Of a stretch of 64,000 nt of DNA, positions 3,288 through 27,645 are shown piece after piece. Every line of letters starts with the position of its first letter. Within the stretch, counting starts at the first letter, position 1. A program made the position numbers and the translations under genes. Source of the DNA: Trichoderma breve (lineage: Eukaryota; Ascomycota; Sordariomycetes; Hypocreales; Hypocreaceae); contig NC_079234.1 of the NCBI RefSeq assembly GCF_028502605.1, positions 1,364,001 to 1,428,000 of the forward strand, in the 5' to 3' direction. The notes under the pieces are model-generated. The model was not told the origin of the DNA. It ran no database searches and worked only from the letters and a program-made list of their open reading frames with translations.

Positions 3288-5267
3288 ATGAAGCAATGGC
3301 AAGAATACTTTCAGTTTCTGTGGTATCAGTTCACTTCAGGAACCGTTCTGCGGCTCAACAAACACCATGCAAATACTTTAGCTCGTCTATCCTCACTTCG
3401 ATCTCTGAAAGATAGAGAAAATCAGGGCGAAGTCCAACATGAGACACGCATCTATGTTAATCAGAGCACCAAGAAGGAGAGTGAAAGTGATAGGGAAAGT
3501 GATGATGTCTGGGGATTCAAAGACACTTCATATCGTGCCAACCCGGATGGTACAGTGGAGGTGACGGGTTCTCGATATCTTCTTAGCGGTTGTAAGCTAC
3601 CATCGCTTTTACCTTGGGCTAGCGATGTGCTTGGTGTCGATGTACCAAGGCAGCCAATGCTTCAGACTTTGGAAATCCCCATCCCAGAGCCCCAGCATAT
3701 CAATGACGAATTCCTTGATTACCTTCGCCAAGTGGTGCTTCTTCGAGAAGACCAAATCAGCAGCGACGCCAAAAACCGGAGGAGACATGGGCATGGCCAC
3801 ACCCAAGAAGAGATGTATGCCATCAAGTACGGGTCTGGGCTTGCTCGGGTACCTGACCTTGTTGTCTATCCAGAGACTGAATCTCAAGTGATTGGAATTG
3901 TTGAAGCAGCTCGACAGAAGGGAGTCTGTCTTATCCCTTATGGAGGCGGAACAAATGTTAGCGCCGCGTTGAGATGTCCATCCAACCAAGATGGCGAGAA
4001 TCGCATGATTGTCTCCGTTGATACACGACGGATGGACAAAATTATTTGGATTGACCCTGTGAACCGTCTCGCGCAGATCGAAACAGGGGCAGTTGGAAGC
4101 AACATCATGGAAGCACTGGCAGAGAGAGGATTTACCATGGGTCATGAGCCGGATAGCTGCGAGTTTTCGACACTGGGCGGCTGGATTGCGACGAATGCTA
4201 GTGGCATGAAGAAGAATCGATATGGAAATATTGAAGATGTCGTACTCGACATGCGGGTTGTCATGCCCACAGGAGGTGTTATGACCAAAGGCAGCAGCAG
4301 CGTTCATCCTCGGGAATCTACCGGGAGCAATCCTCTACGATACACGTTTGGCTCAGAAGGCTCTCTGGGGATTGTCGTCTCTGCCGTTGTTAAGCTCTTT
4401 CCTCTTCCCGAAGCCACAGAATACGCTGCTGTCCTGTTTCCCACATGGGAGAATGGAGTACAATTCATGTACGAGCTGCGACAATCCAACTGTCAACCTG
4501 CCAGTGTTCGTCTGGTGGACAACGAGCAATTTCGTATGAGTCAAGCACTCAAGCCAGCTCAGCCGTCAGGGTTCATTGCGGGTACTCTTGCTGGGCTCAA
4601 GCGCACGCTGGAGCACATGTACATCCTTCAGATCAAGGGATTTGACCCGCGTGAGATGGTAGCTTGCACCATGGTGTTTGAGGGCAGCAAGTCAGAAACC
4701 AGGATTCAGCAACAAGCCGTTAAACGCCTGGTTAGTAAACACGGAGGTGTTGATGCGGGCGCAGAGAATGGCAGACGGGGCTACCAGATGACATACAATA
4801 TTGCATATATTCGCGATTTCGCGATGCAACATTATATCCTGGCTGAGTCGTTTGAGACCAGTGTCACTTGGTCACACGCCTTGGACCTCTGTGACCGTGT
4901 CAAAGACCGCCTACGACGAGAACATAAGGAGAGAAAGCTTCCTGGAAAACCACTGGTGACTTGCCGAGCAACACAGCTATACGAGACAGGGGTAGCCATC
5001 TATTTCTATTTTGGGTATTATTTTGAGGGCGTCACTGAGCCGGAAATGGTTTATGCTGAGATGGAAGAAGCGGCTAGAGAAGAGGTCCTTCTCGCGGGAG
5101 GCTCGCTATCACATCATCACGGGGTAGGTAAGTTGAGAAACAGGTTTCTGGGGAGTGCTTGGTCGGATGCGGCCTTGGAGTGGCGAGACGACGTGAAGCG
5201 AGCGTTGGACCCGGAGAACGTGTTTGGATGCGGGAATCTGTTAAAGCCTAGGATCACCCACGATTAA
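3288..5267 (+). CDS. AGPS: Alkyldihydroxyacetonephosphate synthase (ether-lipid synthase)
   Basis: A single-exon protein of 659 residues. The family is a flavoenzyme that swaps the acyl chain of acyl-DHAP for a fatty alcohol and so creates the glycerol ether bond. Visible marks are the segment WGFKDTSY (about residue 75-85), the FAD/PCMH-type binding loop PYGGGTNVS (about 216-224), GHEPDSCEFSTLGGWIATNA and GSEGSLG in the FAD domain, and the AGPS-specific active-site run SHHHGVGK near residue 607-615. The C-terminal ALDPENVF motif is shared with related oxidases. Length matches the mature animal enzyme plus an N-terminal extension. I see no canonical PTS2 near the N-terminus and no PTS1 at the C-terminus (ends THD), unlike the peroxisomal animal enzyme. 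It is convergent with the PEDS1-like gene 197 bp away. ATG 3288 is the first in-frame Met after an upstream stop. Confidence 0.93.
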   Translation: MKQWQEYFQFLWYQFTSGTVLRLNKHHANTLARLSSLRSLKDRENQGEVQHETRIYVNQSTKKESESDRESDDVWGFKDTSYRANPDGTVEVTGSRYLLSGCKLPSLLPWASDVLGVDVPRQPMLQTLEIPIPEPQHINDEFLDYLRQVVLLREDQISSDAKNRRRHGHGHTQEEMYAIKYGSGLARVPDLVVYPETESQVIGIVEAARQKGVCLIPYGGGTNVSAALRCPSNQDGENRMIVSVDTRRMDKIIWIDPVNRLAQIETGAVGSNIMEALAERGFTMGHEPDSCEFSTLGGWIATNASGMKKNRYGNIEDVVLDMRVVMPTGGVMTKGSSSVHPRESTGSNPLRYTFGSEGSLGIVVSAVVKLFPLPEATEYAAVLFPTWENGVQFMYELRQSNCQPASVRLVDNEQFRMSQALKPAQPSGFIAGTLAGLKRTLEHMYILQIKGFDPREMVACTMVFEGSKSETRIQQQAVKRLVSKHGGVDAGAENGRRGYQMTYNIAYIRDFAMQHYILAESFETSVTWSHALDLCDRVKDRLRREHKERKLPGKPLVTCRATQLYETGVAIYFYFGYYFEGVTEPEMVYAEMEEAAREEVLLAGGSLSHHHGVGKLRNRFLGSAWSDAALEWRDDVKRALDPENVFGCGNLLKPRITHD

Positions 5268-5464
5268 TCATCTATATTATCTATTTACTAACGCATCACT
5301 ATGTACTATACATATTCAGTTCAATTTTCGATTGTAGAGAGCCATTTGATCAGCGGTTTACTAAACAAATCGAGTCGCTTCAACTACCGCCCCTGGTAAC
5401 ACTGGTAGCCGCCTCAGCACTAACACCGGGAAAGTCCAAATAGAGAAACACTACATGATGTAAG

Positions 5465-6339
5465 CTATTCTGTCAGCAGCTTGTTTTGGTTCTTTTGCGA
5501 CTGTTCGTGAAGAGGCACCGCGCCCGTGATGGCCGTAATTGCCCTTTCGAGACCTTCAAAGAAGCCAATAGCAGTTAATGGGCGGTTCATCCACCCTGTT
5601 GTGATGCAGTAATAACAGTCATGGGGACGTATGTGGTGCAAATGATGGTGTTGCCGCGACATAAGCAGACCAGTATCCTGCAAACCTCTCACTAACATAG
5701 GAGGATTCTCCATGTGAGCCCAGCAGTGGAACTGGTTCGTATATCCGCAGAAGAACGCAAACGAGAGCCAGAAAGTGGCTGCAGACAAGGCCGAGACGCT
5801 GTCTTCCGACCCAAGGGCAGACGATGCTACCCAGAGCGCTGGAATACTGACAATGAAGTTATTCCCATTGAGCTCCAAGAAGCCATGCCGTGTTATAGAC
5901 CGGGGATCGGTGTGGTGATCTCGAAAAGGTCGGATGAAGGCAGGACCGATACCTGGCCAAGTTCCGCTGCCCCAATTATCAGCGCCCCAGTGGACAATTC
6001 CAGACACTACGTCGGCTGCTAGGATGCCCAAAAAAAGAGATATGGCCATGTATACTCGGATGTAAAGGATGGTAGATGAGCTGATGCCGTCGGTTGTATA
6101 ACGGTCGTACATCTTGTTTGCGGTAACAGCAGCCTGACCAAAGAAAAGAGCCACGCCGCAGACTTCCATCACAACAGTGGCCGTTGTGCGATCTTCAGCG
6201 ACATGTTGACTCTCTCTTGCCTGTGTAGCGGTGAACACACGTTGTTGTTAGCATGGCGGGCATTGAAGATTGCTTGAACGGGAGATGGGATACTAGCATT
6301 GATGCTTACATCTTCCGGCTCTGGATTTGTGGTATCCAT
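5465..6339 (-). CDS. PEDS1: Plasmanylethanolamine desaturase-like protein (Kua/TMEM189/CarF family)
   Basis: Two exons, 6310-6339 (ten codons, MDTTNPEPED) and 5465-6220, with an 89-nt GTAAGC...ACACAG intron, give 261 residues. The family is a di-iron membrane desaturase that introduces the vinyl-ether double bond, turning plasmanyl- into plasmenyl-ethanolamine. The conserved histidine motifs are all present: HWGADNWG, FRDHHTD, ITRHGFLELNGNN, HCWAHM, SRQHHHLHHIRPHD, followed by CYYCITTGW. Two to four hydrophobic segments flank them (about residues 25-45, 60-85, 130-165). A good TATA box (6420-6428) lies about 85 nt upstream, which supports the start at 6339. The neighbour across a short convergent gap is AGPS, the enzyme making the ether bond that this enzyme would desaturate. 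Plant FAD4, an acyl desaturase, is a related family, so biochemical specificity is not settled by sequence alone. Confidence 0.9.
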
Positions 6340-7044
6340 GACTGCAGTTGAAGAAACGACTTGTGGTCATTTGAAACTGTCTATGACTGTCCATACATCG
6401 CGACAACATGCATACAAATCTATTTATACTCCATAGCAGCAGTATGAGTATTAAAAAATGACTGCCTACATGTAAAGTAGTTACAGATAGCCCAAATTCG
6501 CTCATCTATTCTTGTACACTGAGCAGACAATAGCTACAGCATGCTACAATTCGGCAGGGATATGCTCCAGGATTGCCTGTATACATACATGTAATTACGT
6601 GTATTCGGGCAACCGGGGTTGTGTACGCTAATAGCCTCTAATGCAGCCTCATGCCAGCCTCTGTAACCGACCTTTAGAGCCGAGAAGCGCACCTGAAAAG
6701 GCTGCATTAGTAACGTAATAGTAAGCTCGGAGGGATTCTGAAGTCCATAGCATGCATCTTCTATTTGGCAAAAGGCGAGGCCTGGTATGACAGTGGGATG
6801 GCCGCATGTATGCTTGGACCTGTAGGAGGCCCCCAACAACTAAATGGGTTAAATGTTTTGAAAGGATGAAGGACTGTTTACAAGGATATACATGCAGTAG
6901 ACATGGGTTTGACTTGAACCTCGTCACTCTTTGTCCTAGGCAATCCCGGATAGAGAGTGCCGTAGCATATTTACTTGACTTTAATTGCCTATCCTCCATC
7001 ATTCATACGTGAGCTATAGGTAGCGACACGTTCGTTGATGTCCA
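6340..7044. other. Divergent promoter between PEDS1-like gene and MFS gene
   Basis: A 705-bp region between two divergent genes. Apart from the TATA box facing the desaturase, I see no motif I can name and no coding potential. A shared promoter would allow co-expression of the two genes. Confidence 0.45.
6420..6428 (-). promoter_or_regulatory. TATA box of the PEDS1-like gene
   Basis: On the minus strand the sequence reads TATAAATAG, a near-perfect TATA element, about 85 nt upstream of the ATG at 6339. Position and quality fit a core promoter. Confidence 0.5.
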
Positions 7045-8841
7045 ATGGATCACACCGCCTCAGACGCATCCTCTCCGTATCCCGTCAAAGATTTCCGTTT
7101 TCGTGTAGTCATTCTGTGTCTCTGCGTCTGCTGCTTTATTGCGTCGCTCGACACCATCATCCTTTCCTCGACCCTGCCAGCCATTGCAGCAAGCCTCCAG
7201 GCTACGACGACGGATGCGTATTGGTGTAGTGCCAGTTTTCTATTCGCTCAGAGTGTGGTCCAACTCATCTACGCTGTCGTTGCTCGAGCTCTTAACCGCC
7301 GAACATGCATGCTAGCTGCTCTTGGATTCTTTGGCTTTGCGAGCATCTTATGCGCAACGGCTCGTAACATACAGTGGCTCATTGCCGCGCGGACAGTGAG
7401 TTGTTTGTATCCTTATATCCTTCTTTATTTTCCATATTCGTGATATGCAGATTGTGGCTCCATGTCTTCTGACTTTCTTCAAAGATACAAGGTGTTGGCA
7501 CTGGTGGAACCAATGCACTTGTCCAACTCATCTTGACGGATATAGCTCCTCTAGCTGAAAGACCCAAATACACGGGACTTGTAACCCTCTTCTCGGCACT
7601 TGGCCTGGTGATCGGAGGCCTTTGCGGCGCTGCAATCGTGCAACATACCACATGGCCATTGTGAGTCTAGAACGATTCTTTTACATGGGTTATGGCTAAT
7701 GATGATACATAGAGTCTTCTGGATCAACCTGCCGATATGCGTCCCCACAATGGTCGGTTTTGCATGGTGCCTTGATGCTCCCCCAAGACAATCATCAGTC
7801 TGGACAGCCATCAAGAAGACAGATTGGGGTGGTGGCATCATAGTAACGGGATCTTTGGCAGGGATTCTTTTCGCTCTCAACAGCGGGAATGCCGTATATC
7901 CTTGGACATCTGGCAGAATTCTGTCACCTTTGATATGCGGCGGCGTCGGTTTACTTGGATTCGTGGCATACGAAAGATTTGTTGCCAAAGAAAATGCCAT
8001 TCTTCCAGGCAGACTCTTCTCCAATGTCACTGCCGTGTCAGCCTACATCATGGCGCTCCTCCATTCGATAATTCTCTGGACTGCAACGTATTACTTCTTC
8101 TTATATGTGAGTAGCAAAACTTCCTATGAGTAATTCTTCGGCTAATTATTTAATTCTGTAATCTAGCTTACCTTTTGTTCTCATTCGTACTTGAGCGCGG
8201 CGATTCTTATGCTTCCAGCCACACTCACATTTCCACCGTCCGCTGCCATTGCAGGCCATATTATTGGCCGTACACTCAAATACCAGCTGGCCAACATAAT
8301 TGGCTTTGCGTTTCTCGTTGGTGGCCTCAGTGGCTTAGCCAATCTTAATGAATTCTCTTCTGTGGGTCTTCAGATTGGCCTCTTGTTCATTGTGGGAACT
8401 GGCTTTGGCATCCCGTTTATTAGCAAAGTATTCATGGCGCAAACAGCCGTCGCAGAAGATGATCAGTATATGGCTACAGCCATCGTATCGACGGTAACGA
8501 GTGTTGGAGAATGCTTCGGAGTGGCCATATCGAGTACCACATTTCAGAACAGATGGGATGCCCTCCTCGAAAAAGAGTTGAAGCAAACTGTCCTCTCAGT
8601 AGTGATCAAGGGGAGTGATGCAGAACGAAGTACTGTCTTGTTTGGGACTCTGGACAAAGAGACGGCAAGTTTCTATCGACACATTGCCATGCAAAGTTTC
8701 CAGACGGTGTGGATCGTAATGGGCTCATTGGCTGGTGTTGCCCTTATTCTATCTCTTTTCATCAGGGATCCTAAGACAAAAGAAGCAACTCCTACAGAGT
8801 CGAGTGTAGAAGCTATAATTCTAGATAAAGAGAAAGCATGA
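7045..8841 (+). CDS. MFS transporter (DHA2-like, about 14 membrane segments)
   Basis: Four exons, 7045-7395, 7485-7660, 7713-8106 and 8167-8841, keep one frame and give 531 residues. The chain is strongly hydrophobic, with the MFS signature region around residues 45-140 (SLDTIILSSTLPAIAASL and, across intron 1, ARTIQGVGTGGTNAL). A central cytoplasmic stretch is followed by a second half ending in the charged tail after FIRDPKTKE. Members of this group export drugs, mycotoxins or metabolites at the plasma membrane or vesicles; the substrate here cannot be read from sequence. It sits inside the ether-lipid cluster, divergent from the desaturase and convergent with the PAQR gene 128 bp downstream. 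The segment around intron 3 (YFFLYLTFCSHSY) is a few residues shorter than usual, so that splice choice is less certain. Confidence 0.85.
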
Positions 8842-8969
8842 ATGCTTTCGTTCTATTTCATTTGGATTAAACTATGATGGTGATTCATCTAAATCTAGCT
8901 CTAGTGCTCTCTCTAATTTCTACTCTCAACCCAACTAACAAAGCTCTATACATATTACATTCTTCTGGA

Positions 8970-9866
8970 CTACACAATCGAGGCTTCAATGCTTGTTCGT
9001 ATGGTACCAATACCCAGCCAGATTGACCACACAGCAAAAACATGAAGGATATTATGGCTACCACCAAAGTAGTCGAAACGACCAGGCCAAACACATTCTG
9101 GAAATTGAGAAGCATAGAGAATGGCGCCCACCACTATCGGTCCATACGGGGTCATCATTGGTCCGTACAGGTTCAAAGTTGCCTGCAGTCCTCTTGTCCA
9201 TAGTAAATGTACCACAGGTATGGCAACGCCCTCGGCAACGAGTCCGATCCACACGGCAATTCGAAGCCAGGAGCTTCCCGTCGCTCGCATAATCGGGAGC
9301 CAGCATGAGGCCACTGCTGCAGTGCCCAGGACTACGGACATGCCCATGTAAATCAACTGGAGATAGGGGGACTCCGCGAAGGCGTTGAATTGCGTTACCA
9401 GGACCGAGGCCAGGGCTAGTGTCGTCACACCCATAAGATCCATAGTTGAGAAACACGACAAGGTGCTGCTGGAAGAGATACAGCGCATTGTGTGCCAGGA
9501 GACACTGCATGCGGTGCAAGCAATGGCCGCCATTAAGTACACATAGTAAACTCCAACAAGGCCTTCCGTGATATAGATATTATTGGGGTTGCTGTATGAC
9601 ACAGCCGGATCGTCATATATGAGAGTCTTGACAAAGTATAGGCAGCCGAGGAGGTGTGACCAGATATTGAAGGATTCATTATGAAGATGGAAAATAGAGC
9701 GTATGCAGTATGTACATGACTCGGTGAAGCGATAGCCGTTGAATATGTGGTCGTTGTGACGCCAAGGTACTGGAAGTTCCGAGATATGGATGAGGTTCGT
9801 TTTGGACTTGCGGGCTGCCGCCAAAGCAAAGCTGATTTGCTGATCCAAAGCCTTCTGCGTCGACAT
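8970..9866 (-). CDS. PAQR family (HlyIII/Izh-like) seven-helix membrane protein
   Basis: A single exon of 298 residues from ATG 9866. The N-terminal block WRHNDHIFNGYRFTESC, then HLHNESFNIWSHLLG, is characteristic of PAQR/Izh proteins. The putative zinc ligands are all visible: the His in SVSWHTMRC, the Asp in STMDLMGV, and the His pair in GGSHNILHVF near the C-terminus. About seven hydrophobic helices follow the cytosolic N-terminus. PAQRs are linked to ceramidase-like hydrolases, and in yeast the Izh members affect lipid and zinc homeostasis. Placed between ether-lipid genes, this one may sense or remodel an ether lipid, which is inference. Longer in-frame starts upstream would need non-ATG codons, so Met at 9866 is preferred. 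Confidence 0.9.
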   Translation of the reverse strand: MSTQKALDQQISFALAAARKSKTNLIHISELPVPWRHNDHIFNGYRFTESCTYCIRSIFHLHNESFNIWSHLLGCLYFVKTLIYDDPAVSYSNPNNIYITEGLVGVYYVYLMAAIACTACSVSWHTMRCISSSSTLSCFSTMDLMGVTTLALASVLVTQFNAFAESPYLQLIYMGMSVVLGTAAVASCWLPIMRATGSSWLRIAVWIGLVAEGVAIPVVHLLWTRGLQATLNLYGPMMTPYGPIVVGAILYASQFPECVWPGRFDYFGGSHNILHVFAVWSIWLGIGTIRTSIEASIV

Positions 9867-11584
9867 GTTTGATGTGAGAGGTGCTCTCCAGGCTATTGTG
9901 AGACAGTACAAAGACCACGATTTAGGTCCTTTTATCCCCCGTTAGAGGCGTTAAAGGCGGTAAACCTGGAATTGATTGCATTATTCGCAGTTTACTGGAT
10001 AGCAAGGGGTAGAAAATTCGTCCAAAGTCTCAAGTCACTCACAAGAGCTGCTGAATCTGTCAGCGAGTACATCAGGGTACATAGACGGACATTGTTGGAA
10101 GTACTCATGCCACCGTCCACAATTAGGGCTGACAAGATATGGGGGACTGATAGGGATGCATCCCTTCATGATACTAGCAGGGCCTTCCTACTTGCCCGCT
10201 AGCTCCCTGCAGAATCTCGGTAAGCTGATGTGGGCGACCGATTCAGCTCCTCGTAATTTACTAGGCACGGCCCGATTCAGGCTATAATATTTCACATTTC
10301 TACTACTACCACAAGCATTGACAACTCTTTACTGGAGTGAACAACTGCATATCAGGCCCAGCCAAGCATCACCGTCTCTTAGATTGTAGAAGCTAAGCTC
10401 TTACATGGCCCTCCTTGACTCAACTAGCGGCATCTGCACTTAGCCTCGTTGTAAGCGGCTAGTTGGTTGGCATAGTTATCATCTGGTCTACATTCGGTAA
10501 TTGCAAAGCTGGGCTTTTGTGCCTTGTCATTCGGTGGAAATCATGGCCACACTTTGTTGATTGGTGCGTGGACACTTGCTGTGCTCTACTATTCTATCAT
10601 CAAATCGGGCTGTATTTATCCCGGTCTGACTCTCAATAGTTGCATGAATGTGGTGGAGTATTACTACCAGATATGCGGTGTGTATTAACCCTCCCGGACA
10701 ATAATACTGGCTCTGTTAATTTGCCAACCATGACTATTGATGATCCCATCGTTAGCAACGGTGCTAGCAGCACTTCTAGATTGCTGCCACACCTTTGCCC
10801 ACAGCCAAGGACTTGGTAGCCCCCACTGCTAGGTTCTCCGCTCTTACACCCGCAACCTTCTCGAGAGTCCTTCTGTTTCGTATTCCTGGCAACCATCATT
10901 TCAGTTCCACTATTTTATTGAATCCCACTTCCAGTGACACCAACAGGCTGATATCTATGGTAGGCTAGTTGAAGTTCATTGGCCCATGTTCTAATAGTGG
11001 TGGGAATACTGTTTACACTACTTGCCTTACCAACAGTTTAGTAACTGCTCATGAACATTAAGTGGGATAAATTCTGCTCTTAAGAAACTACGGTCAATGT
11101 AGGCTTGCAAGGACCAGGAGGGTGAGATTTCAGCTGGAATAGCTTCGTGGCCTTGGCCATAAAGGAGGCTCAATTCTGTGCTGGCGCATGCGCAAGTAAG
11201 ACTCCTCATTTGGCGAGATGCTGCATTAGTTAGCATTTGGAGTCCAAATGGGGAATTTGCAGCTTTGAAGAGACTACATGTAAATGATAGCAAGCTGACT
11301 GATAAACCTGTCTGTGTTTCTTTGATAGAGCCTCTATGCGTACCTTCATGTTTGCGCTGACGAAGTAGTACCTTCACAGAAACCCTTTATCACATCTCGT
11401 TTTCGCACCCCCGCAAGGTTGTTCGCAAAGTTTGGCTGAGGTGTGCACACCCACCCTCTCCTTCAAGTTGGTGCCTGACCTGGTAGTGGCCGGTTTGAAG
11501 ATTTAGAGAAGATCAACAGCAGAGCAACCCCGAGAGGGTTCCTGGAAAGGCAAAGTGTATTCTGATAGAGCATGAACACACGAC
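9867..11584. other. Intergenic region upstream of PAQR and FAR-acyltransferase genes
   Basis: A 1.7-kb divergent intergenic stretch. Frames of 76-116 codons occur on both strands but lack domains and ordinary codon use. I see no repeats or RNA genes in it. Confidence 0.45.
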
Positions 11585-14053
11585 ATGTCTGAAGCTCAAG
11601 CCAATGGGAGGAAAATCTTCCTCACTGGAGTCACAGGCTTCTTAGGCAAAGTGGTCTTAGAAGAACTGATCCGTCGACGCTATGAGTTGAAGATTGAAAA
11701 AGTCACAGTTCTGATCCGTCCTTCTAAGCCATCGACTCATGAGGCTACCACCAAGGAGTCTCATTTTTCATCTCGCTTTCATGACGAGGTCGTTGCATCC
11801 AAATGTTTTACGCAGCTAACTCCTGGATGGACTCGATATGTTGAGCCAGTATACGGAGACTTAGGCCAGGCCCAGTGCGGATTGGACGCTGCCACCTATG
11901 AGAAGATCAGCAGAGAAACGACTCATATCATACACTGCGCGGCTTGCGTACAATTTGATCTCTCACTCAGCAGTTCCCTAGATATTAACTTGCAAGGAAC
12001 GCTCAACATCCTCCGACTTGCTCGAACATGCTCCAGCCTTGAGCGCTTCGTATACACCTCTACTGCATACGTGACACCTCATGGAAAGTATGACCAAATC
12101 CGTGAGGAGCTGGCACCATTGGGCCCCTGGCAAGATGCACAACAGTTACTTGATGCCTTGCACTCTGGATCAGTGACCGAGGAACAACTATTGCAACAGA
12201 CTGGCCACCCCAACACATACACTCTCTCGAAATGCATCACAGAGTATTTTGTCCTGAAAAACCGTGGTGAAATTCCCATAACCATTGTGCGCCCGAGCAT
12301 CATTACTGCAGCTCTGGAGCGCCCATGCCCTGGTTGGTCTGATAGCGCCTCGGCAGTTGTTGGAGTTGTGTTGGGAGTTCAGGATGGCGGAGTATCTGCT
12401 CTTGGAGGCAATCCGACGGCATTTATAGATCTGGTTCCTGTTGATTTTGTCGTCGAATTCATTATCGACGAGATATTTGCGATACACGCTTCGTCAGCAA
12501 CAGTACCAATTGTTCATTGTGTGTCAGGTCTGGAAACTATCACGCCAAAGATCTTTTCTTCAGTTGGTGCCGTGTATTTCCAGCAATCTGAGATGCAATG
12601 GCTCAACTACCGGAGCTCTCCGACGACTCACCTCTACCGATATGTATGGCAGACGATGCCTCTCAAATTGGCCAGGACATTCTGCTGGGCGGGAGGTGAT
12701 CATCGTGCCGTGAGGCAATTGACGCGAGCCACCCAAAACATCGACAAACTTGATCACACATTTGGATACTTTCTCTCAAACTCGTTCAACTTTGCAGCGA
12801 GCCGTCCAACTTTGGCCCAGAGAGCTCCGTACTTTAAACCGGCTGCTTACATGCAGATGATGTTTCGGGGAGCGCAGCAGTTCATGATGCGCCGTACTCG
12901 CGAGCGGAACATGGTATCCACTGAGAAATCAATTGCTGGAGAAGGCGTTAATAATGGCGGTGAAAATGCTCTGAAGCTGTTTCTGACTTCTCGAGCCAGT
13001 GTGATTTTTCGCGTCACTGCAGTTGTTGTCGGGGCGGCTTTGAGCCGAATGTTTCAGAGAGTAACATTTGACCAGCAGTCTTTCTTCGATGCTCTTGAGG
13101 GCTACAATTCGGGATTGTCTGACGAAAAGATCATAATCATGCCCACTCATCGAAGCTACATGGACTTCGTCATTTGTCCTTATCTCTTCTATCAGTTCCC
13201 TGTGCTGGGTGTCAAAATCCCGTCTATCGCTGCCCAAGATCAATTCTCGCGGATACCCATTATAGGATGGCTGCTAAGACGACTCGGCGCTTTCTACGTT
13301 CGGCGCGGTATTGGCCGAGCAGATCCAGAGCTCAATGACCAAATTCGGCAACTGGTCGAACAAGACGAGCACATCCTCTTCTTCCCCGAAGGGCAACGAA
13401 GCCGCTCCAGAGAGTTTCTGCCCCCACGACGAGGTCTTTTGCGATCATTGCAGAGTACGGGCAAATCATTCAAGATTCTACCAGTCTCAATTAGCTATGA
13501 ACGAGTTCCAGAGGAAGGCGCTTTCATTCGAGAGACACAGGAACAAGAGAGACCTCGCATGAGCCTTTTTGCTCTCATCAGGTGGACATACAGCATGATT
13601 CTCGGCCGCGTGAGGCTTGGAAGAGCCCACATCAAGTGCGGGAAGTTGCTAGAACTCAACCCTGAAACCGATGTGCATGCCATCTCACACCAGGTTCTGA
13701 ACGAACTTCAAGAAAATACTGTCTTGACAACATATCACCTCGAATCTTTTGTCAACTACCATCGTCGAGATTGTCGGTGCTCTCCTCCATGTGCTATCAG
13801 CGGCGCAAAGCGACGTTCAGATGCTGTAAACTGGCTACGAAAACAGCTCGAAGAACGAGGGGCAACTGTTCTCGATGGTGCGCTTTCTGTGGATGAGAAT
13901 CACCCCGTATCGCCAGCGCTTGAGACCAGTCTCATGAACCAATGGATCCACTTCTTCGATCGTGACACAGTCGTGATGCCTCCGAGTTCTGCTTTTGCAG
14001 CATCTGATTACAAAGTCTTTGATGTGCCCAAGTGTCAATCGGTCATTGCATAA
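11585..14053 (+). CDS. Fatty acyl-CoA reductase fused to DHAP/glycerol-3-phosphate acyltransferase
   Basis: A single exon of 822 residues with two enzymes in one chain. Residues 1 to about 330 form an extended-SDR fatty acyl-CoA reductase: the NADP-binding motif TGVTGFLGK at 14-22, STAYV at 159-163 and the catalytic YTLSK at 212-216; the reductase C-terminal region follows to about 430. Residues about 500-720 are a GNPAT/PlsB-type acyltransferase with block I HRSYMD (522-527), block II GWLLRRLGAFYVRRG, block III FFPEGQRSRS (near 598) and block IV ILPVSISYERVPEE. A hydrophobic segment precedes the second domain (about 478-495). The two activities would make the fatty alcohol used by AGPS and the acyl-DHAP it acts on. 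As I recall, a similar fusion is known from Dictyostelium, while animals use separate proteins. No PTS1 is seen (ends SVIA). Confidence 0.92.
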   Translation: MSEAQANGRKIFLTGVTGFLGKVVLEELIRRRYELKIEKVTVLIRPSKPSTHEATTKESHFSSRFHDEVVASKCFTQLTPGWTRYVEPVYGDLGQAQCGLDAATYEKISRETTHIIHCAACVQFDLSLSSSLDINLQGTLNILRLARTCSSLERFVYTSTAYVTPHGKYDQIREELAPLGPWQDAQQLLDALHSGSVTEEQLLQQTGHPNTYTLSKCITEYFVLKNRGEIPITIVRPSIITAALERPCPGWSDSASAVVGVVLGVQDGGVSALGGNPTAFIDLVPVDFVVEFIIDEIFAIHASSATVPIVHCVSGLETITPKIFSSVGAVYFQQSEMQWLNYRSSPTTHLYRYVWQTMPLKLARTFCWAGGDHRAVRQLTRATQNIDKLDHTFGYFLSNSFNFAASRPTLAQRAPYFKPAAYMQMMFRGAQQFMMRRTRERNMVSTEKSIAGEGVNNGGENALKLFLTSRASVIFRVTAVVVGAALSRMFQRVTFDQQSFFDALEGYNSGLSDEKIIIMPTHRSYMDFVICPYLFYQFPVLGVKIPSIAAQDQFSRIPIIGWLLRRLGAFYVRRGIGRADPELNDQIRQLVEQDEHILFFPEGQRSRSREFLPPRRGLLRSLQSTGKSFKILPVSISYERVPEEGAFIRETQEQERPRMSLFALIRWTYSMILGRVRLGRAHIKCGKLLELNPETDVHAISHQVLNELQENTVLTTYHLESFVNYHRRDCRCSPPCAISGAKRRSDAVNWLRKQLEERGATVLDGALSVDENHPVSPALETSLMNQWIHFFDRDTVVMPPSSAFAASDYKVFDVPKCQSVIA

Positions 14054-14612
14054 CGGCCATGTCGATAGGCGGCATGACAGAGAAGAAATAATGTTACGGT
14101 TACAATAGGAGTGATTGGAGGAATTGGTTGAGTGTACTGGTCCATATTACTACAGATCTACGTAAATTTTTATGACTATAGACACTGGAAATTACGAAAC
14201 TTTATTCGCAATTTGGCTTAGTTATCTTATGATTATCAGGGGAGTTTGCGGTAAACATGAGTAAGAGAAGAAAAGCTTTCCTCCTCACGTCTTTTTGCCA
14301 TCATCACATCTTCAACATCCTCATGATAAGCCATAGCTCTTCAAACTAGAAAAGAGCAGAAGAACAGACTTTTGACACCCCACTGTATATGTGATTGGCT
14401 GGTGCGTACTCTGTACTAAAGCCTGAACTATTTCCGCTTTTGGTAACCCCGAGGCGACCCGGCGTCTCTGTGGTGGGCTGTCAACAACAGCTAGAATGTA
14501 CCGTGATTCTATTTGAAGCTTGGGAACTTTGGGCAGAGCGGACGATGTTTATACAGCGTTCTTAACAGGCAATCCAGTCACATGTACCAGCGTTGCTAAA
14601 GTCGGCAAGCTT
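14054..14612. other. Intergenic region
   Basis: About 560 bp between two co-oriented genes. No coding signal; the next gene's frame is open from about 14517 but contains no ATG before 14613. Confidence 0.4.
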
Positions 14613-16082
14613 ATGGACTATCAGAAGTTTCCAGACGTTAGCAGCCTGCTTGTCACGGCAGAGAACCCAGCGCGTAATGATACGCTCGGTCTGGATCACG
14701 CACGATGTGTCGCTCTGCACAACCATCTGGTTCACTATGCCTGGACTGCTGAAGGACGCCCGCCCGATGATCTAAATAATAGCAGCAAAACATTCTTTAC
14801 CACCTACGGAGCTGCAGCAGAGGCTATTCGTGAACGACTTGACCCCTCGCTGGCAGCTTTCCTTGACGCTGCCCTGTTGCCTCCCGATGGGTCTGATGGC
14901 CTTGATCCCGCGCCCCTCTCTGTCTTTGTGTCTGAGTTCTGTGAGCCCGACAGTTTCTTTGCTAACGAAACGGCTGATCTGTTCGACGAGCCTGTTGACA
15001 GTCTGGTCTGCCTATATTATCCCAATGTTGGCCAAGGTGGAGGAAGTGGCGGTGGCCTATTCTACCATCAAGGCTACCATCGTGCCGCTGTCTTCATGCA
15101 TATGTGGGATCACGATTATGCCCTGCCTGTTGCGGCACACCAAGAGCTTTGGCACCCTCTCGAAACAGTGCTCTCCAACTGGATCGAGCTGATTCATCTT
15201 GGCAAGACTCAAATCACGCCTTCACCGAGAGACGAGGGGGGCCGGTATGGCAGCGAAAAGATTGGACCGTGGGAATGGCTGCCGTATAGTGAAGCCCAGG
15301 TTGCAGCTTGTTTGGATGCGTGGGAACAGCTGTGTAAGGCCATTGAGGCGCGTAACTCACAAATTACCAGCAGCACCACCTCCGATGCCATGAATCCGGT
15401 GCGGTTGCTCGATCCCGCTGTCTTGGATGCGGCTTCAGTGCCCAACCCTTCTTTTGCCCGCTCCTTTCTCACCCGCGCGCGCCGACCTCTCTTTCGTAAC
15501 ATTGCCCCAGGTCTTGTCCTGCCACCGGCAGACGCAACCGAGTTTATGGCAGCGCAGCCCTTCACTGGATTGCCTCGCGGCCATCATGCCGTACCGCCGG
15601 TATGCCTTTTCCCTGCGGCGAAAGGCGAGCCTAAATTCAACCTGTCGGCATCTTCAAACCCCTTTTGTAATGACTTTCGTGCAACAACTGCCGATTCAGT
15701 CGTTCCATCACAGGTCGGTGCCGGTGTCTACAGTCAGTCGGTTGAGAGGAATGCAGGTCACGACTACGCCGAGGAGGGATTCTGGCTGCTGCTACCATAC
15801 AACTTCGAGAGTAATTGGGATGCAATCGACGGCGCGCGGAAGAGCGACGGTTCGTTAATTGCCAGGGATAGGTTGACTGATCTGTTCCAGCATGGATACA
15901 AGCCCTATGGTGGCGACTACTACCGACCTCAGAGGCTGGAACGTTTGTTTGACTGTTGGCGCAAGCTCATTGAGCAAAACGTCTGGACTGTTGGGCCACA
16001 AGGAGTGCAAGGCAATCTTGACACATTCAAGGAGGCTGGAACAGCCCGTTGGAGAGACTATATTATTACACCTACTTGGTAA
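14613..16082 (+). CDS. Conserved-looking hypothetical protein, 489 residues
   Basis: An uninterrupted, GC3-rich frame of about 490 codons with ordinary fungal codon use, clearly a gene, but I recognise no family. The start chosen is the first ATG in frame (MDYQKFPDV). The frame is open about 95 nt further upstream without an ATG, so a short upstream exon cannot be excluded. The protein is soluble-looking, without signal peptide or membrane helix. It is rich in Trp, His and Asp around residues 150-190 (YYPNVGQGGGSGGG, then MHMWDHDYALP and HQELWHPLE). It lies co-oriented 560 bp after the FAR-acyltransferase gene, so it could be a cluster member, but position is the only argument. Confidence 0.78.
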   Translation: MDYQKFPDVSSLLVTAENPARNDTLGLDHARCVALHNHLVHYAWTAEGRPPDDLNNSSKTFFTTYGAAAEAIRERLDPSLAAFLDAALLPPDGSDGLDPAPLSVFVSEFCEPDSFFANETADLFDEPVDSLVCLYYPNVGQGGGSGGGLFYHQGYHRAAVFMHMWDHDYALPVAAHQELWHPLETVLSNWIELIHLGKTQITPSPRDEGGRYGSEKIGPWEWLPYSEAQVAACLDAWEQLCKAIEARNSQITSSTTSDAMNPVRLLDPAVLDAASVPNPSFARSFLTRARRPLFRNIAPGLVLPPADATEFMAAQPFTGLPRGHHAVPPVCLFPAAKGEPKFNLSASSNPFCNDFRATTADSVVPSQVGAGVYSQSVERNAGHDYAEEGFWLLLPYNFESNWDAIDGARKSDGSLIARDRLTDLFQHGYKPYGGDYYRPQRLERLFDCWRKLIEQNVWTVGPQGVQGNLDTFKEAGTARWRDYIITPTW

Positions 16083-17306
16083 TAACTTTCACATATTGAC
16101 GTTTAGAAAATCTGGCTTTCTACTACTTTCGCTCCCAGAATCTTCCACGATAGATTATATGACAGTTTATAGTTTGCTAGATGTTGCTTCTTGTAAACAG
16201 TGGCCATCTATGGCAATATTCAAGTTGGCACCCTAGTTTCTTAATGATACTCTAAACCCTCTTTCAAAGTGTCTTAAAAGATGCTACGAGCTGAGGTATG
16301 AGTTATTTGGCACAGAACAGCTATGCAAAATAAGTCAGTTTCGATTTCTATATTTTCTCCAGCTATAACACTCCACTGTCTATCACGAAACAAGTCTCAG
16401 TAATGGATGCCAATTTCCCAGGCCTCCCTTCAAGGAGAAAACGGAGAGCCGCAGCGGCTTCTGTGGCTCACTTGGGCTCCTTGATGGACCTATCGAGCGC
16501 TATACCGTACGTGTTAGTGGATGCGTTCTCACCAACTTATTGCTCGGCTCTCGAAGCTTTCAAACTCGAGCCAGCACGGCTGAGCTTGAATGCGTTTATT
16601 TCTGGACAATAAGCCAATGATCATAGTAGGCTAAATAAGTCTTTTTACAACGTATTTTTTTGATCGTATTCATGTATGAGGGTTGATCATGCAGTGCCCT
16701 CACATTTTGCGGCACAGAGCGCTATAATAGCGGCCACACGTGTAAGTGATTATGTCTTAGTCCAGTGTCATTAAAAAATACCCCGCGAACAACGCCTCCC
16801 AACCACGATTCAACAACAACACCAAGGAAGAGAAATTCTAGCAAAGAGCAAAAAAAGAAAAACATACAACAGCCGGTGTTCGCCAGTGGTCACCCACCTG
16901 ACTACTAATCTGCCGGTTAGCGGCTTATCTATGGGGGAGCAGACGGGACCCCGAGTTCTCCGCTACCTATGGTCGTATGTGCTAGAAACACTAATATTTT
17001 AGCTTATATCACAACCTTAGCTGGTCATGCTCTCCCAATATCAGGAACACGCATATCATCGCCGGTGGTCCTTAATTTCCCAAATAAGGAGGCGTCAGTA
17101 GACATGGTAGACGTGGTTAGTGATCTGATCGTGTCGAACGAAGATTCTACCAGCACAGCTTTCCGGCTGTAACCATGGGAGGCGATGGTATTTATCGCAG
17201 TGTCTCCTTGGACTGCCATAACGAACGAATCCCGGTGGATAGATGCATGTATAGAAGTTGAGTGAGTATGATTACATCACCCCGCATCACCCTAGCACGA
17301 TAGACT
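16083..17306. other. Intergenic region carrying a 5S rRNA gene
   Basis: About 1.2 kb between convergent protein genes. It contains one complete 5S rRNA gene (16862-16980) and is otherwise AT-rich. A 69-codon frame at 16403-16612 has no support. Confidence 0.45.
16862..16980 (-). rRNA. 5S ribosomal RNA
   Basis: A 119-nt sequence whose minus strand starts ACATACGACCATAGG and ends GGCTGTTGTATGT, the terminal stem typical of filamentous-ascomycete 5S rRNA. The internal CCCGTCTGCTC and GATTAGTAGTCAGG segments also fit. The + strand carries A-runs just before it (16850-16861), which are T-runs downstream of the RNA and fit a Pol III terminator. It differs from the copy at 34406 at a single base (16958). 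Confidence 0.95.
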
Positions 17307-19573
17307 TCAGGCAAAGATTATCTCCCAGTCAAAGTCTGCCAATATACTGAGCCAATGGATGGAAAGGCGTCCACCTTGGTTCTGGTCCCAAAGCTTCTGC
17401 ACAATCTGTCTCGATCGAGACATGTTCAGAAATGCCAGCTTGTCACTGTGAAGTACCCAAGGATTAGACAACATCCTACAGCTAGTAGGAGTAATACTCA
17501 CATAGCAGTCGCATAAAGCTTGCTAGCTCTCTCTCTGTCACTAACATTCGATTCGCTTGACCCGCCGCGCCCAGTGTGAATATTGTCTGGGTGATTATCA
17601 TTGGATGATGTCGAGCAGATTGACACAGTGAAGATGATCCAATGAGATGATACAAAGCCGGGCAGATTCAAGACCTCCATTGTCTCGAGCAATGAAAGCG
17701 CATTGCGGACCAACAAACGCACAGAAAGAGCGTCGGGTGACAGACAAAGGACAAAACACTTGATTTGTAGAAGGCAGGCTATGCGAAATCCGTCGTGGAA
17801 ATATCGATGACTGGCCATGTCCGGTCGGTCTGATGAAGGCATTAGTACGGTTACAACCGCAATTGGAGTTACAGACGCACCTCGGACGAAATTCTCCAGC
17901 CAAATTCTCTCCTTCTCAAGAGTTGCCTCGAGATTTTCTGCCTTGCTGACAATTTCGGCCAGTTCCTGATCAGTCCATATGGCATTACGTTGAGCCCAGC
18001 TCTGGTTAACCAGTTTCGCGATACGCGGCAGGATGCAGTATAATGGAAGAGCCAATCCAGTCAGAGAGTGTGGGATTCCTCTTTGTGTATTCGCATATGC
18101 CGTCGAGACTTCAGGGTCAATCGCGGGACCCTGGGCGTACAACGAGCAGCCCTAGGTATGATCGATCTCAGCATTGTCCAATCTCATAGGATTATTCTGA
18201 CTCACATAAGAATCATGATATATGACGTTTTCTAAGCTGATATAACTAATCAGTATGTTAACTAGTACAAAGTTAAGACATACAAAGAGAATTTGGTGTT
18301 ACTCAAGCCTTTCGGCGCTTGTGCAAGGGTGAAGATTGCCGCGCACAGCCGCTTCAGCTGCGTGAAGTAACTTTCGAAACCCCAAACATCGCCTCGGCAG
18401 ATCTATGACAAGACGTAAGCATGCATTCTCACGAGAAGGTGAATCCAAGACCTACTTTGTACATGACAAACATGAGTAGCCCAGCGAGGAGAGTGATCGA
18501 CTCTTCTTCAGTGATTTCTTCGACCTTGGGTATATCCTTTAATCTCTGCAGGATAATTGCCGAGCCCTCGACACCAAGTTGTTCACTAATTCGCTCGTAG
18601 CATAGTTGACCCTTGTTGAACATGTGTCTCGATGCTAGAGCTAGGATGCCATAATGCAGAGCTCTTCCAGCAGAATTTCCGATGTTAGCAGAGGCCGTAG
18701 CGTTAAAGGCGTGGAAAGCGTTCGGGAAAAGGGTCTGGTCATATGATAGAAGACTGGCCAGTCGATCGCGGAAGTATTGTAGGATCTGGGCTTGAGTGGT
18801 GCCATCCGGTAATGTGCTGGAGGAGTCGCCTGGCATCGATGAGATTGTATCGCTGGAGTCAGGCACACTCTTAGACATAGTTATTGTAGCGGGCAAGGGA
18901 AGAGATGATGGCCGACGGCCGCTGGAGACAGCTTCACTAGCGTCGTCAGAAAGGAAAGGGGCACAAGTCTCGGCCCAGAGTTGTAAGATGGCCTGCGATG
19001 TCAGTCTCAGCATGATGCGGTTTCTAAGAAGGACCTTGTCACTCACATCGTCGATGGGATTGAACTGAGGAGGGAAGAGATTGCCTCCGAACAAATCTTG
19101 AGGTGCATCATCGGCTCGAGTATGAGACCAGCCTGGATGCAAAGTCGAGGTCGAAATGCTATCAGGGCTGGGCCGGGGAACAGAACATCCTGGATGACTT
19201 GTCTCTCCGGAAGATAATCCCTGCTCTTCAGGTACATCTACTGTTCCGACAAGCGGTGATAAAGTTCGCGCGGTACCGTCCGCAGTCTTGGCGATTCTCT
19301 TCACCGCAGGCCATTCGCATTCCTGAAGAAGCTGTGAGTTGAGTGAGAGACACCAGAATGATAGTATGTGACCCCTACCAGGTTCAGTCTTGTACAGTCT
19401 CCACAGCATGGCCTGGTCATATCACAGCGCTTTCTTCGAGATTTACAAGTCATGCAGCCAGTTCTTGTGCGCGAGACTTTACGCCGCATCCGCTGCTTTC
19501 GGGCACCGCGAGAGCTCGTGGATAGCCCATCTGGACTATCGTCCGCCGTATGAGAGCGCGACTCTGACGCCAT
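17307..19573 (-). CDS. Zn(II)2Cys6 transcription factor
   Basis: Seven exons read right to left: 19379-19573, 19047-19331, 18456-18992, 18284-18402, 18206-18236, 17502-18151, 17307-17445. All join in frame to give 651 residues. The zinc cluster begins at residue 40 (GCMTCKSRRKRC, then CCGDC) and is completed across intron 1 by ECEWP, giving the six cysteines. A Ser/Thr-rich linker follows. The remainder resembles the fungal-specific regulatory domain (for example AILQLWAETCAPFL, YGILALASRHM, LLAGLLMFVMYK). Intron 2 (18993-19046, 54 nt) is a multiple of three without a stop, so an isoform retaining it would be 18 residues longer. The gene lies between the ether-lipid genes and a divergent MFS gene and could regulate either. 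Its targets are not visible. Confidence 0.85.
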
Positions 19574-20289
19574 TGGATCTTGGCTTATGACGGAGTTGCC
19601 AGTAACATGATGGTGATAACTGGTTGGAAGTAAGACTAACACTAGCTGTTGAGCTAGCGAGTTGCTAACGTGTGGCTGGTCCCGATCGAAGAGGAGCCTC
19701 TCTTCCCTAGACCAACCTTCGTAAAGCAAGTGGAGTATCATCAGCCATGTAATCCGCGGCACAGGCGTATACGGCGTATACAGCGTATACAGCGCATCTC
19801 AAATGTTTCTTTCACATATCGCTTTTGTCATGGTAAAAGTCGTCGTTTATATGTTCTGACTTTAGAATCAGCATATCAAATTCAAGCGTCAGCCGCTTCC
19901 AGGATCTTCTAACTTCCATAACTATATATCATCTCTGAAGGGCATTACATCATCAATCTTACTTTAACACTGCCGCTCACTCAACGGGTCTTACTCTCAG
20001 TTGGGAGCCACCCAGATCCAAGAGTGATCGAAATACTATCACGATACCTTGCGTTACTAACGAATAACCTCCACAACCGACGATTGGCTCACGGAGAAGC
20101 CTAGTGGGTGAAGCATAACAATCTTGTCTTGATAAACAAGCTTTGCGCCGCTCGCGTAAACCTCGGAATCTGTCTAGAAGATTGAGTCTTTTCGTTCTTC
20201 TTCAGCTTTGAGGAACATCACACGTACAGATCTAGTCAAGCGAAACCGGCAATGATGGCGGGTGGGATGGTCTAAGTCTTGCCACGGCC
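19574..20289. other. Divergent promoter between Zn2Cys6 factor and MFS gene
   Basis: About 716 bp shared by the regulator and the transporter. Its one clear structure is the tandem GTATAC-containing repeat at 19764-19790. Confidence 0.5.
19764..19790. repeat. Three tandem 9-bp units with GTATAC palindrome
   Basis: The units read GGCGTATAC, GGCGTATAC and AGCGTATAC head to tail, then AGCGC starts a broken fourth. Each contains the self-complementary GTATAC. The block lies about 190 nt upstream of the Zn2Cys6 factor ATG, so it could be a protein-binding array or a simple expansion. Confidence 0.7.
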
Positions 20290-25100: not shown

Positions 25101-25854
25101 CGTTTGCTAAGTCGAGAAAGGTTGCCTCGGATGAATTTTTTCGGCGAAGAGCCTCCAAGTCTCGGGCAATAAGCAGAGCTATGATTTCAGCGCCAGCGTC
25201 AGTGCATTGCTTGAACGATGCCGCGTAGTGCATCGGCGTATTATTTTTATCGTCTTGAGCTTCCAAAGCGTCGTCGCTAGCATTCTCTATCAACATTCTA
25301 GCCGTGCTGAGGTTCAAGTTGCCTGAGAAAGCAGCATGAAGAGTTGTTCTTCCGCCCTGCGCGGTCTGTAGGAGCGTTATTTCAAGGTTTTGCCTAGCAG
25401 ACGGTCTAGTTGCATCTGTATTCTTGCTGCTGATGCAGGCAGAGATCATATACTCGGCAAGTTCATACGCGGAGTCTCTAATTGCCATATGTAATGGGTT
25501 GTATCCGTCGTTGTTTTGATGTAGCAGAAGCTTCGGATAATACTCGACTAGTCGCTGAACAAGACATCTCACATGTTCTGATTTCATGTCGTCGCGTTTG
25601 ATCATATCTACTATAGCGTGCAATAGATTTTCTGAGCCATGGCCAGCGGACTGGCCAGCAATGGCGCCGTGTGCAGAAAGAAACTCATCAACGTCGATTT
25701 CTCTGTCGTTTGTTGTTTTTATTGCCTTGACTGCTGCCTTGTATTGTTCCTCGAAACTTTTGACATCTTTGCTGTAGACATAACTGCCCACACCTTGTTC
25801 ATTTTCATTGTCATAGTTGACTGAGTCGTCAGAGTCAGAATCCGAATCCGCCAT
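22118..25854 (-). CDS. Intracellular subtilisin-like protease with ankyrin repeats
   Basis: Four exons, 23728-25854, 23041-23658, 22869-22962 and 22118-22800, give 1,173 residues. If intron 1 (69 nt, GTATGA...ACTAG) is not removed, the chain stops right after the ankyrin part. Residues about 75-280 hold ankyrin repeats (for example DGYNPLHMAIRDSAYELAEY, GGRTTLHAAFSGNL, NNTPMHYAASF). A charged helical segment (about 325-355) and a linker follow. Residues about 830-1060 are a peptidase S8 domain with the complete triad: Asp837 in ALIDDGVD, His874 in ARGHGT, Ser1046 in GSSVATALAAG. No signal peptide is present, so it should act in the cytosol or nucleus. Subtilase domains coupled to repeats occur in fungal NLR-like and allorecognition gene sets. 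The divergent neighbour at 26392 shares its promoter. Confidence 0.85.
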
Positions 25855-26391
25855 ATCAGGTGCTGTAGAATTTATTAAGATGTTGGAACGAACAAATTAA
25901 AACCGTATGTATATCGAGTTGAAAAAAAAAGAACGCATCCAAGATAAATATGTGATGAAAGTGAGAGAGTCTCTAGTATTAGAATGAGGGGGAAAGTTGT
26001 TAGGCGACCAATTACTGGGCACGTAGCAACAACCCCTTCACTCCTATCGTAATCCAAAGTTGACGAAGCACACAGTGTACGGTGTACATGGAGACATGAA
26101 TAAGGCGTGTGACCCATTGAGCTGCTGGAATATTCACGCAATTTGTTATAGCGGGCCGCGTTCCACAGGTGTTTAAAGAATATTGTTCTCCGGCTGGAGG
26201 GCCCTGTATCTTCAAACCCGAAACAGGCAAACGGGCGGGGTTCGGGACAGAGCCTCAAACCGAATCTACATTTAAGGCATCCCTTTCACATTCTTACATC
26301 AAATAGTTTGAGAGTCGGCTGAGGCTTTAATCTTTAACTTTCTCTTGCCACTACCGTTAGTCCTATTATATGATCTCCTACCTTGCTCAAC
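25855..26391. other. Divergent promoter, ankyrin-subtilase gene and 298-residue gene
   Basis: A 537-bp region between two genes transcribed away from each other. I see no repeat or obvious core element. Confidence 0.4.
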
Positions 26392-27288: not shown

Positions 27289-27645
27289 GGCATATACTGT
27301 ATCTACTTTAGATTTACTCATGCTTAATGTTAGTTAACAGCAGTAGAATAGTGATATTAATACTGGACGAGATCCCAGCAACACTGTTACCTAAAACGGG
27401 TTACATTCTGAAATGGTGAATAAGGCTTCTGTCATCACCCCATGCGCGATTATTACGATTGCTATCTGTACTCCGTGGGCAGTTCCATCAATTAAGACTG
27501 GTTACGCCAAATAAATACATACAAGGATGCGTGTGAGGGGGGAAATGCAGCAACCCCGCAGGCTCCAAATCTCTCTGAAAACTCGCTCTATACAAGCAGA
27601 AGAGGGCCTCATGCAGCATCCTGAAATCGTTCATTGATCGAAGCA
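27289..27645. other. Intergenic region
   Basis: About 360 bp, AT-rich, between two co-oriented genes; nothing recognisable. Confidence 0.4.

Follow-up and report, generated by a model that had tools for sequence, protein, structure and literature searches.

In animals, plasmalogens are made by a pathway that, as set out in PMC9131029, comprises FAR1, GNPAT, AGPS, and PEDS1, encoded by separate genes and with peroxisomal early enzymes. According to the same source, M. xanthus has AGPS and a fusion of a fatty acyl-CoA reductase (FAR) to an acyltransferase (AT), encoded by MXAN_1676-1675, together with the aerobic desaturase CarF, AGPS being a minor route there beside ElbD. In Dictyostelium, FARAT, described in PMC7375469, likewise carries a FAR followed by an acyltransferase in one protein, which starts ether-lipid synthesis. 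As for fungi, the review PMC9131029 treats plasmalogens as absent save for some reports and CarF homologues as very rare, so that some fungal CarF homologues were already known, and single proteins are annotated in databases as AGPS or Kua-domain. PMC4207751 describes other GNPAT-like acyltransferases in ascomycetes, states that ether glycerolipids had not been described in fungi, and reports a lipidome of S. cerevisiae in which ether lipids are missing. Here, we report on a stretch of 64,000 nucleotides of Trichoderma breve (assembly GCF_028502605.1, contig NC_079234.1, bases 1364001-1428000, forward strand; hereafter the window), which lies on contig 3 of a 38.5-Mb genome of 9 contigs. As assessed by open reading frames (ORF) and Pfam, it contains genes for AGPS, a PEDS1/CarF-type desaturase, and a FAR-AT fusion, all intact, inside 10.8 kb. 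A sequence-only reading of this DNA had placed the three enzyme families within 11 kb, and ORFs, Pfam, and similarity found each of them at its predicted place:

3288-5267, plus strand: AGPS, alkyldihydroxyacetonephosphate synthase, 659 amino acids (aa), intronless coding sequence, with flavin adenine dinucleotide (FAD) domains and active-site R/Y/HHH
5465-6339, minus strand: PEDS1/TMEM189/CarF-type desaturase, 261 aa, two exons (6339-6310 and 6220-5465), with PF10520 and the family's histidines
11585-14053, plus strand: FAR-AT, a fatty acyl-CoA reductase plus a GNPAT/GPAT-like acyltransferase, 822 aa, intronless coding sequence, recognised by motifs and Pfam

We consider it probable that these genes are functional and constitute a bacterial-type set for ether-lipid synthesis, with AGPS and FAR-AT derived from a bacterium and acting outside the peroxisome. 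What we observed directly, and what carries this reading, are the sequence identities, the intact catalytic sites, the single full-length copies, the equal contig sizes in other fungi, the bacterial operon, and the grouping of FAR-AT in trees. The domains and similarities support the earlier proposal that the four committed activities of plasmalogen synthesis are encoded here. As regards the comparison with animals made in that proposal, the activities are indeed the same four, and active-site residues of AGPS and PEDS1 are kept, but AGPS and FAR-AT resemble the bacterial set by identity, operon, and FAR-AT trees. Unlike in animals, FAR and AT are fused, no peroxisomal targeting signal (PTS) pattern is seen, and AGPS is nearer to bacteria.

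AGPS is one uninterrupted ORF in which Pfam FAD_binding_4 (E-value 8.4e-36) and FAD-oxidase_C (E-value 1.9e-40) score far over cut-off. Its best relative of solved structure is guinea-pig AGPS, a full-length match (E-value 1.6e-157), which, together with the FAD domains, bears out the diagnosis made from the motif SHHHGVGK. For the active site, we take the numbering to be R419, Y578, and H615-H617. The Arg replaced in the solved mutant chain 4bc7 (R to H), the Tyr replaced in the solved mutant chain 4bca (Y to F), and the SHHHG motif are retained in 15 of 15 AGPS sequences compared, which are fungal or group with fungi. Loss of FAD or active-site residues, which the sequence-only reading had named as a finding that would speak against it, was not seen: the FAD domains and R/Y/HHH are all present. 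The identity to guinea-pig AGPS is 43.5% (579 aligned positions) and that to Dictyostelium AGPS is 30%, whereas nine bacterial or unlabelled sequences are 52-60% identical to the window protein (52-59% for the five named bacteria among them). Guinea-pig AGPS is 43-48% identical to the same nine sequences.

FAR-AT is also a single ORF, with an N-terminal FAR (NAD_binding_4, E-value 1.6e-57) and a C-terminal acyltransferase (Acyltransferase, E-value 1.5e-22). Both domains uphold the assignment previously made from the motifs TGVTGFLG, YTLSK, HRSYMD, and FFPEG, which are present in the window protein. Since the TGxTGFLG, YxxxK, HX4D, and EGxR motifs are all found, the catalytic residues of both halves are kept. 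Across 13 FAR-AT sequences, FAR residues are kept in all nine that have a FAR half, and the acyltransferase His/Asp/Glu in 12 of the 13.

The desaturase matches Pfam Lipid_desat (PF10520) with an E-value of 3.4e-57. The family named by the sequence-only reading was thus correct, but its ORF misses the first exon, which is predicted to comprise 10 codons, to start at 6339, and to be followed by an intron at 6309-6221 (GTAAGC...ACACAG); the spliced start agrees with P0005. The eight-His set of Kua/TMEM189 was confirmed by PF10520 and by residue comparison. PEDS1 needs nine histidines, D100, and F118, as reported in PMC7149458 and PMC9131029, and the window desaturase keeps all nine histidines and the equivalents of D100 and F118. 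The eleven residues are complete in 13 of 16 desaturase sequences; P0008 and P0018 are gapped there, and P0016 has an Arg at H131. A plant FAD4-type desaturase was considered and rejected, because the ninth histidine (mouse H131), which plant FAD4 lacks, is present. An AlphaFold2 model made with ten sequences is all-helical (predicted local distance difference test 79.7, predicted template modelling score 0.77).

All three genes appear to be single in their own genome. The desaturase family has one Pfam match, and AGPS and FAR-AT have one full-length match each plus five partial matches each at 26-40% identity, in searches in which the best candidates only were scored. Two given single-copy genes would both land within 10.8 kb of a third with a chance probability of about 3e-7. 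Among the matches listed (for AGPS and FAR-AT, the best 120 each), the closest are at 94% for the desaturase (Trichoderma sp.), 95% for AGPS (T. simmonsii), and 94% for FAR-AT (an unlabelled sequence, with T. aggressivum at 90%). Contamination was rejected, as the genes lie within a 6.2-Mb contig, have ordinary GC content at third codon positions (0.50 for AGPS, 0.49 for FAR-AT) and relatives in other Trichoderma, and include a desaturase with a predicted spliceosomal intron; the intron and the base composition in particular argue for resident genes.

Linkage outside the window was judged from the longest contig given for each protein, by looking for identical sizes. All three proteins are on contigs of 334624 in T. 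chlorosporum (P0006, P0071, P0198) and on contigs of 494621 in T. citrinoviride (P0009, P0072, P0199), two are on contigs of 531864 in T. barbatum (P0007, P0195), and the desaturase P0015 and FAR-AT P0194 of Thozetella sp. PMI_491 are on contigs of 2039263, with a second FAR-AT of this fungus on a contig of 3118128. The FAR-AT sequences of the first three species correspond to the acyltransferase half only. These four are the named fungi found in more than one protein list among the matches listed, and the sizes agree in four of four. These sizes suggest the travel as a unit that had been proposed, but not every fungus conforms: among the same matches, Thozetella is without AGPS, Chlorociboria has AGPS only, and Cladobotryum has FAR-AT only. 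These absences are weak, because the AGPS and FAR-AT lists comprise the top 120 matches from larger sets and because clustering at 90% hides member species.

In bacteria, the genes for AGPS and FAR-AT are arranged as an operon. Among the best 120 matches of each protein, every named sequence that is not fungal is bacterial, belonging to Deltaproteobacteria, Myxococcota, Gemmatimonadota, Pseudomonadota, and Sericytochromatia. Bacterial and archaeal species genomes were scanned by alignment with FAR-AT; of 218 confirmed matches the best 80 were retained, giving 79 loci. A FAR-AT match was found in 60 of these 79 loci (E-value ≤1e-20), and AGPS immediately precedes it on the same strand in 40 of the 60; where the FAR-AT match is full, this holds for 28 of 30 loci. 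One of the non-adjacent full loci, L040, starts within FAR-AT at a contig end. Record titles include Myxococcales, Gemmatimonadetes, Spirochaetes, Nitrospira, Sericytochromatia, Bacteroidetes, Acidimicrobiia, and others. Locus L031 is M. xanthus itself, with the published MXAN_1676-1675 pair (PMC9131029); its AGPS and FAR-AT matches are adjacent (57 bases between them) and carF is on another contig. The window has AGPS then FAR-AT in the same order and strand as in bacteria, but with 6.3 kb and three genes separating them. It also differs from M. xanthus in that the host is a fungus, all three genes are packed into 10.8 kb, and an intron is predicted in the desaturase.

CarF is present in 9 of 21 bacterial genomes with the operon, picked from the 79 loci. 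In the phylum of M. xanthus, 105 of 195 genomes have CarF (E-value ≤1e-25), 20 have AGPS (E-value ≤1e-100), and 18 have both; AGPS and CarF share a contig in eight of these 18, never closer than about 260 kb, and are on separate contigs in the other ten. No bacterial locus with all three genes and a full FAR-AT was found in the loci and genomes scanned, and assembly of the three-gene set inside a fungus is possible. In one Spirochaetales locus (L044, 8177-12677), AGPS, FAR, and a CarF-type desaturase are inside 4.5 kb, linking three of the four plasmalogen activities; the FAR was matched over query residues 5-513 only.

The trees were built from selected sequences. The first AGPS tree contained 40 of the 120 listed matches and 41 of 42 locus ORFs, and a later one had 13 sequences added and 14 removed. 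The 84-sequence FAR-AT tree drew on a selection from the 120 listed matches plus locus ORFs longer than 640 aa. For the desaturase tree, 26 long or distant sequences were removed and 13 of the 28 loci L102-L129 added. One set left out P0008 and P0010. The trees of paired loci, of AGPS for the approximately unbiased (AU) test, of a 22-sequence AGPS clade, and of 34 FAR-AT sequences used chosen subsets, and long ORFs entered the desaturase, 22-sequence AGPS, and 34-sequence FAR-AT trees with the last 330, 660, or 930 residues only.

In the careful 34-sequence FAR-AT tree, a split with support of 99/99 (bootstrap/Shimodaira-Hasegawa-like approximate likelihood ratio test, SH-aLRT) sets the fungal sequences together with P0202, P0203, and P0205 apart from the remaining 24, which are bacterial or unlabelled. 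In the quick 84-sequence tree, rooted on four Spirochaete FARs, the fungal group falls inside bacterial diversity, nine fungal or fungus-grouped sequences being sister to P0201-P0203 and P0205 (SH-aLRT 98). This grouping recurs in the set of paired loci (92). For AGPS, the Trichoderma, Chlorociboria, and unlabelled sequences form a clade with P0103, P0118, P0077-P0079, P0090, P0140, and P0093 (98), which reaches an SH-aLRT of 100 in a second tree, where it holds 22 sequences. AGPS P0103/P0118 and FAR-AT P0202/P0203 are on contigs of the same sizes, 281864 and 8557, so the two trees point to one common neighbouring lineage. We take this sister lineage to be bacterial because its AGPS and FAR-AT are paired in bacterial fashion on short, intronless records. 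When P0103 was searched in 377 genomes, 43 had a match (E-value ≤1e-150); the best, at 69% (genome G423, whose kept columns are identical to P0135 'Myxococcales'), falls outside the sister clade P0103/P0202. CarF is present in five of the six genomes with the best P0103 matches, and AGPS has an adjacent FAR-AT in the three loci fetched (L150-L152). In the desaturase tree, the fungal clade groups with P0017 and genome G207 of the M. xanthus phylum sample (97); G207 also has AGPS, with no FAR-AT in the stretch examined, which ends at a contig end. Taken together, these findings support a bacterial source for FAR-AT and make one likely for AGPS as judged by identity and operon structure. For the desaturase, a source of CarF type is the most likely one, and this may or may not have been bacterial. 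AGPS and FAR-AT most likely arrived jointly from an operon-carrying bacterium.

The early steps are probably located in the cytosol or at the endoplasmic reticulum. No PTS1 ([SAC][KRH][LM]) or canonical PTS2 (first 80 residues) was found in any of 19 AGPS or 13 FAR-AT sequences, a scan restricted to canonical patterns in which some sequences are unlabelled and perhaps bacterial. Lacking these patterns, AGPS and FAR-AT would act outside peroxisomes. Whereas SKL forms the C-terminus of Dictyostelium FARAT, which is described as strictly peroxisomal (PMC7375469), the window FAR-AT ends in CQSVIA.

A pathway can be proposed from the predicted activities. The FAR half of FAR-AT would convert acyl-CoA to fatty alcohol, and its AT half would acylate dihydroxyacetone phosphate (DHAP) to acyl-DHAP, on which AGPS would exchange the acyl group for the fatty alcohol to give alkyl-DHAP. 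Resident fungal enzymes would complete plasmanyl-ethanolamine; the enzymes that finish such a lipid are a 1-acyl/alkyl-DHAP reductase of the Ayr1 kind, an sn-2 acyltransferase, a phosphatase, and an ethanolamine phosphotransferase. Finally, the PEDS1-type desaturase would use oxygen to insert the vinyl-ether bond, yielding a plasmalogen. It is from the observations above that we infer these substrates, this product, and its location, as well as the donor, the joint transfer, and the regulation considered below. A fuller scenario, which we put forward tentatively and are slightly more inclined to doubt than to accept, is that a lineage of filamentous ascomycetes took up an AGPS-FAR-AT operon from bacteria as well as a desaturase of CarF type, gathered these genes at a single locus, and produces plasmalogens outside peroxisomes.

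Other genes lie within and next to the cluster:

about 7039-8841, plus strand: MFS transporter, several exons, within the cluster (PF07690)
8970-9941, minus strand: HlyIII/PAQR-family membrane protein, within the cluster (PF03006, E-value 1.2e-36)
14517-16082, plus strand: 521-aa ORF adjoining FAR-AT, listed by position only
17498-19798, minus strand: Zn2Cys6 transcription factor (Zn_clus at 19301-19798, Fungal_trans_2 at 17498-18151)

In the first MFS gene, PF07690 is above cut-off in 7039-7443 and below it in 8167-8841, with a weak TRI12 match in 7612-8133. The 521-aa ORF has no Pfam or NCBIfam match. A domain scan of the window ORFs found a second MFS gene beyond the Zn2Cys6 factor, which by its position is a possible regulator of the cluster.

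A number of observations weigh against a functional set of bacterial origin, and those from the trees bear on the origin of the genes. The nesting of FAR-AT in bacteria depends on the root and on the sister lineage being bacterial, which is likely but unproven. Eukaryotic FAR-AT sequences in the trees were fungal only, and animals were represented by a single AGPS chain, to which Dictyostelium was added, and by a single named nematode desaturase. The AGPS grouping is weak in the set of paired loci (80, with other bacteria inside). When Trichoderma AGPS was held with guinea pig, the AU test did not reject the grouping (p 0.645), nor did it when the Chlorociboria group was included (p 0.634), and the constrained trees scored slightly better than the free one. 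An earlier test had rejected it (p 0.0037), a result that we discount because the set held probably bacterial sequences and a saturated Dictyostelium branch. Likewise, a grouping of fungal and animal-like desaturases (one nematode and three unlabelled sequences) was not rejected (p 0.154). These tests leave room for ancestral eukaryotic genes that were retained in few fungi and resemble bacterial ones through slow evolution or eukaryote-to-bacteria transfer, an origin also suggested by AGPS in animals and Dictyostelium and by the FAR-AT fusion in Dictyostelium (PMC7375469). We nevertheless regard it as unlikely, given that AGPS is closer to the nine bacterial or unlabelled sequences than to guinea pig or Dictyostelium, that the AGPS-FAR-AT operon occurs across many bacterial phyla whereas few named fungi appear among the matches listed, that fungal FAR-AT in the Spirochaete-rooted tree lies within bacterial diversity, and that the SKL of Dictyostelium FARAT is missing. 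On the bacterial side, two points weigh against the reading that we favour: locus L035 has no AGPS match in the 1.1 kb upstream of its full FAR-AT, and AGPS and CarF were seen as neighbours in none of the 195 genomes of the M. xanthus phylum, where a three-gene donor was not found.

The remaining points against the set of bacterial origin concern function and linkage. Equal contig sizes are a strong but indirect sign of a single contig. The desaturase has NCBIfam NF045946 PlasmethDesatCarF as its sole match (E-value 2.4e-62), at 210.8 bits against a cut-off of 500, which is why we label it PEDS1/CarF-type only and not as that equivalog. The cluster is interrupted by the MFS and HlyIII/PAQR genes, which separate the desaturase from FAR-AT. 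The presence of MFS genes and a Zn2Cys6 factor inside or beside the set recalls fungal metabolite clusters and would fit an exported alkyl- or alkenyl-glycerol serving as secondary metabolite or signal in place of a membrane plasmalogen, with the MFS pump and the Zn2Cys6 factor belonging to the cluster; the small number of named fungi with the set among the matches listed agrees with this too. However, no polyketide synthase, nonribosomal peptide synthetase, P450, or methyltransferase was recognised in the scanned ORFs of the window, and the substrates of PEDS1 enzymes are described as plasmanyl phospholipids (PMC7149458), which together make such a product rather improbable. Four of the 13 FAR-AT sequences (Trichoderma P0195, P0196, P0198, and P0199) are annotated as the acyltransferase half only, either through gene splitting or through a modelling error, and the FAR-AT of Cladobotryum mycophilum (P0200) has lost the acyltransferase His (to Tyr) and the motif-III Glu (to Gln). 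These half-length models and lost residues, together with ether lipids in Trichoderma being unreported among the literature matches listed, are what one would expect of cryptic or decaying genes that are unexpressed or yield no ether lipids. Against this stand three intact frames, 94-95% identity to the nearest relatives listed, and catalytic residues kept wherever checked, and we consider such a state very improbable for the window. The Cladobotryum fusion, in which the FAR motifs are kept, may have turned into a plain fatty-alcohol maker. Three of the four half-length Trichoderma sequences begin at one common internal Met (MPLK...).

Among the literature matches listed, which covered few subscription papers, none described this gene set in fungi, the linkage of its members, or a bacterial source for them. 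As far as checked, the combined locus, the common contigs in other fungi, the bacterial-type anatomy, and the lack of peroxisomal signals are apparently new. If the set of bacterial origin that we favour is real, bacteria would have passed a multi-gene membrane-lipid pathway to a eukaryote whose kingdom is considered free of the lipid. Should the genes prove active, this eukaryote would make plasmalogens by a route independent of peroxisomes, and one could ask what purpose vinyl-ether lipids serve in a fungus living in soil; that they help it withstand singlet oxygen, an idea put forward for myxobacteria, is speculation. A concrete gene set in tractable fungi makes the question of fungal plasmalogens testable.

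Elsewhere in the genome, locus L003 (C4:3929193-3932750) encodes a second GNPAT/GPAT-like acyltransferase candidate, perhaps the fungal GDPAT that PMC4207751 describes in ascomycetes. L003 could likewise feed acyl-DHAP. It was rejected as the acyltransferase of the cluster, as it is a distinct gene with 29% identity over the matched stretch; unlike the fungal GDPAT acyltransferases, the cluster acyltransferase is fused to FAR and has no PTS1.

Farther along the window, there are two complete 5S rRNA genes, at 16861-16980 and 34405-34524, both on the minus strand (Rfam RF00001, 86.3 and 88.7 bits). They are dispersed, and one is just past the ether-lipid cluster. Finally, the stretch 23023-36195 contains possible self/non-self recognition genes, namely a subtilase fragment (23023-23658), ankyrin proteins (23722-25896 and 29060-33541), and a HET-domain protein (34804-36195).

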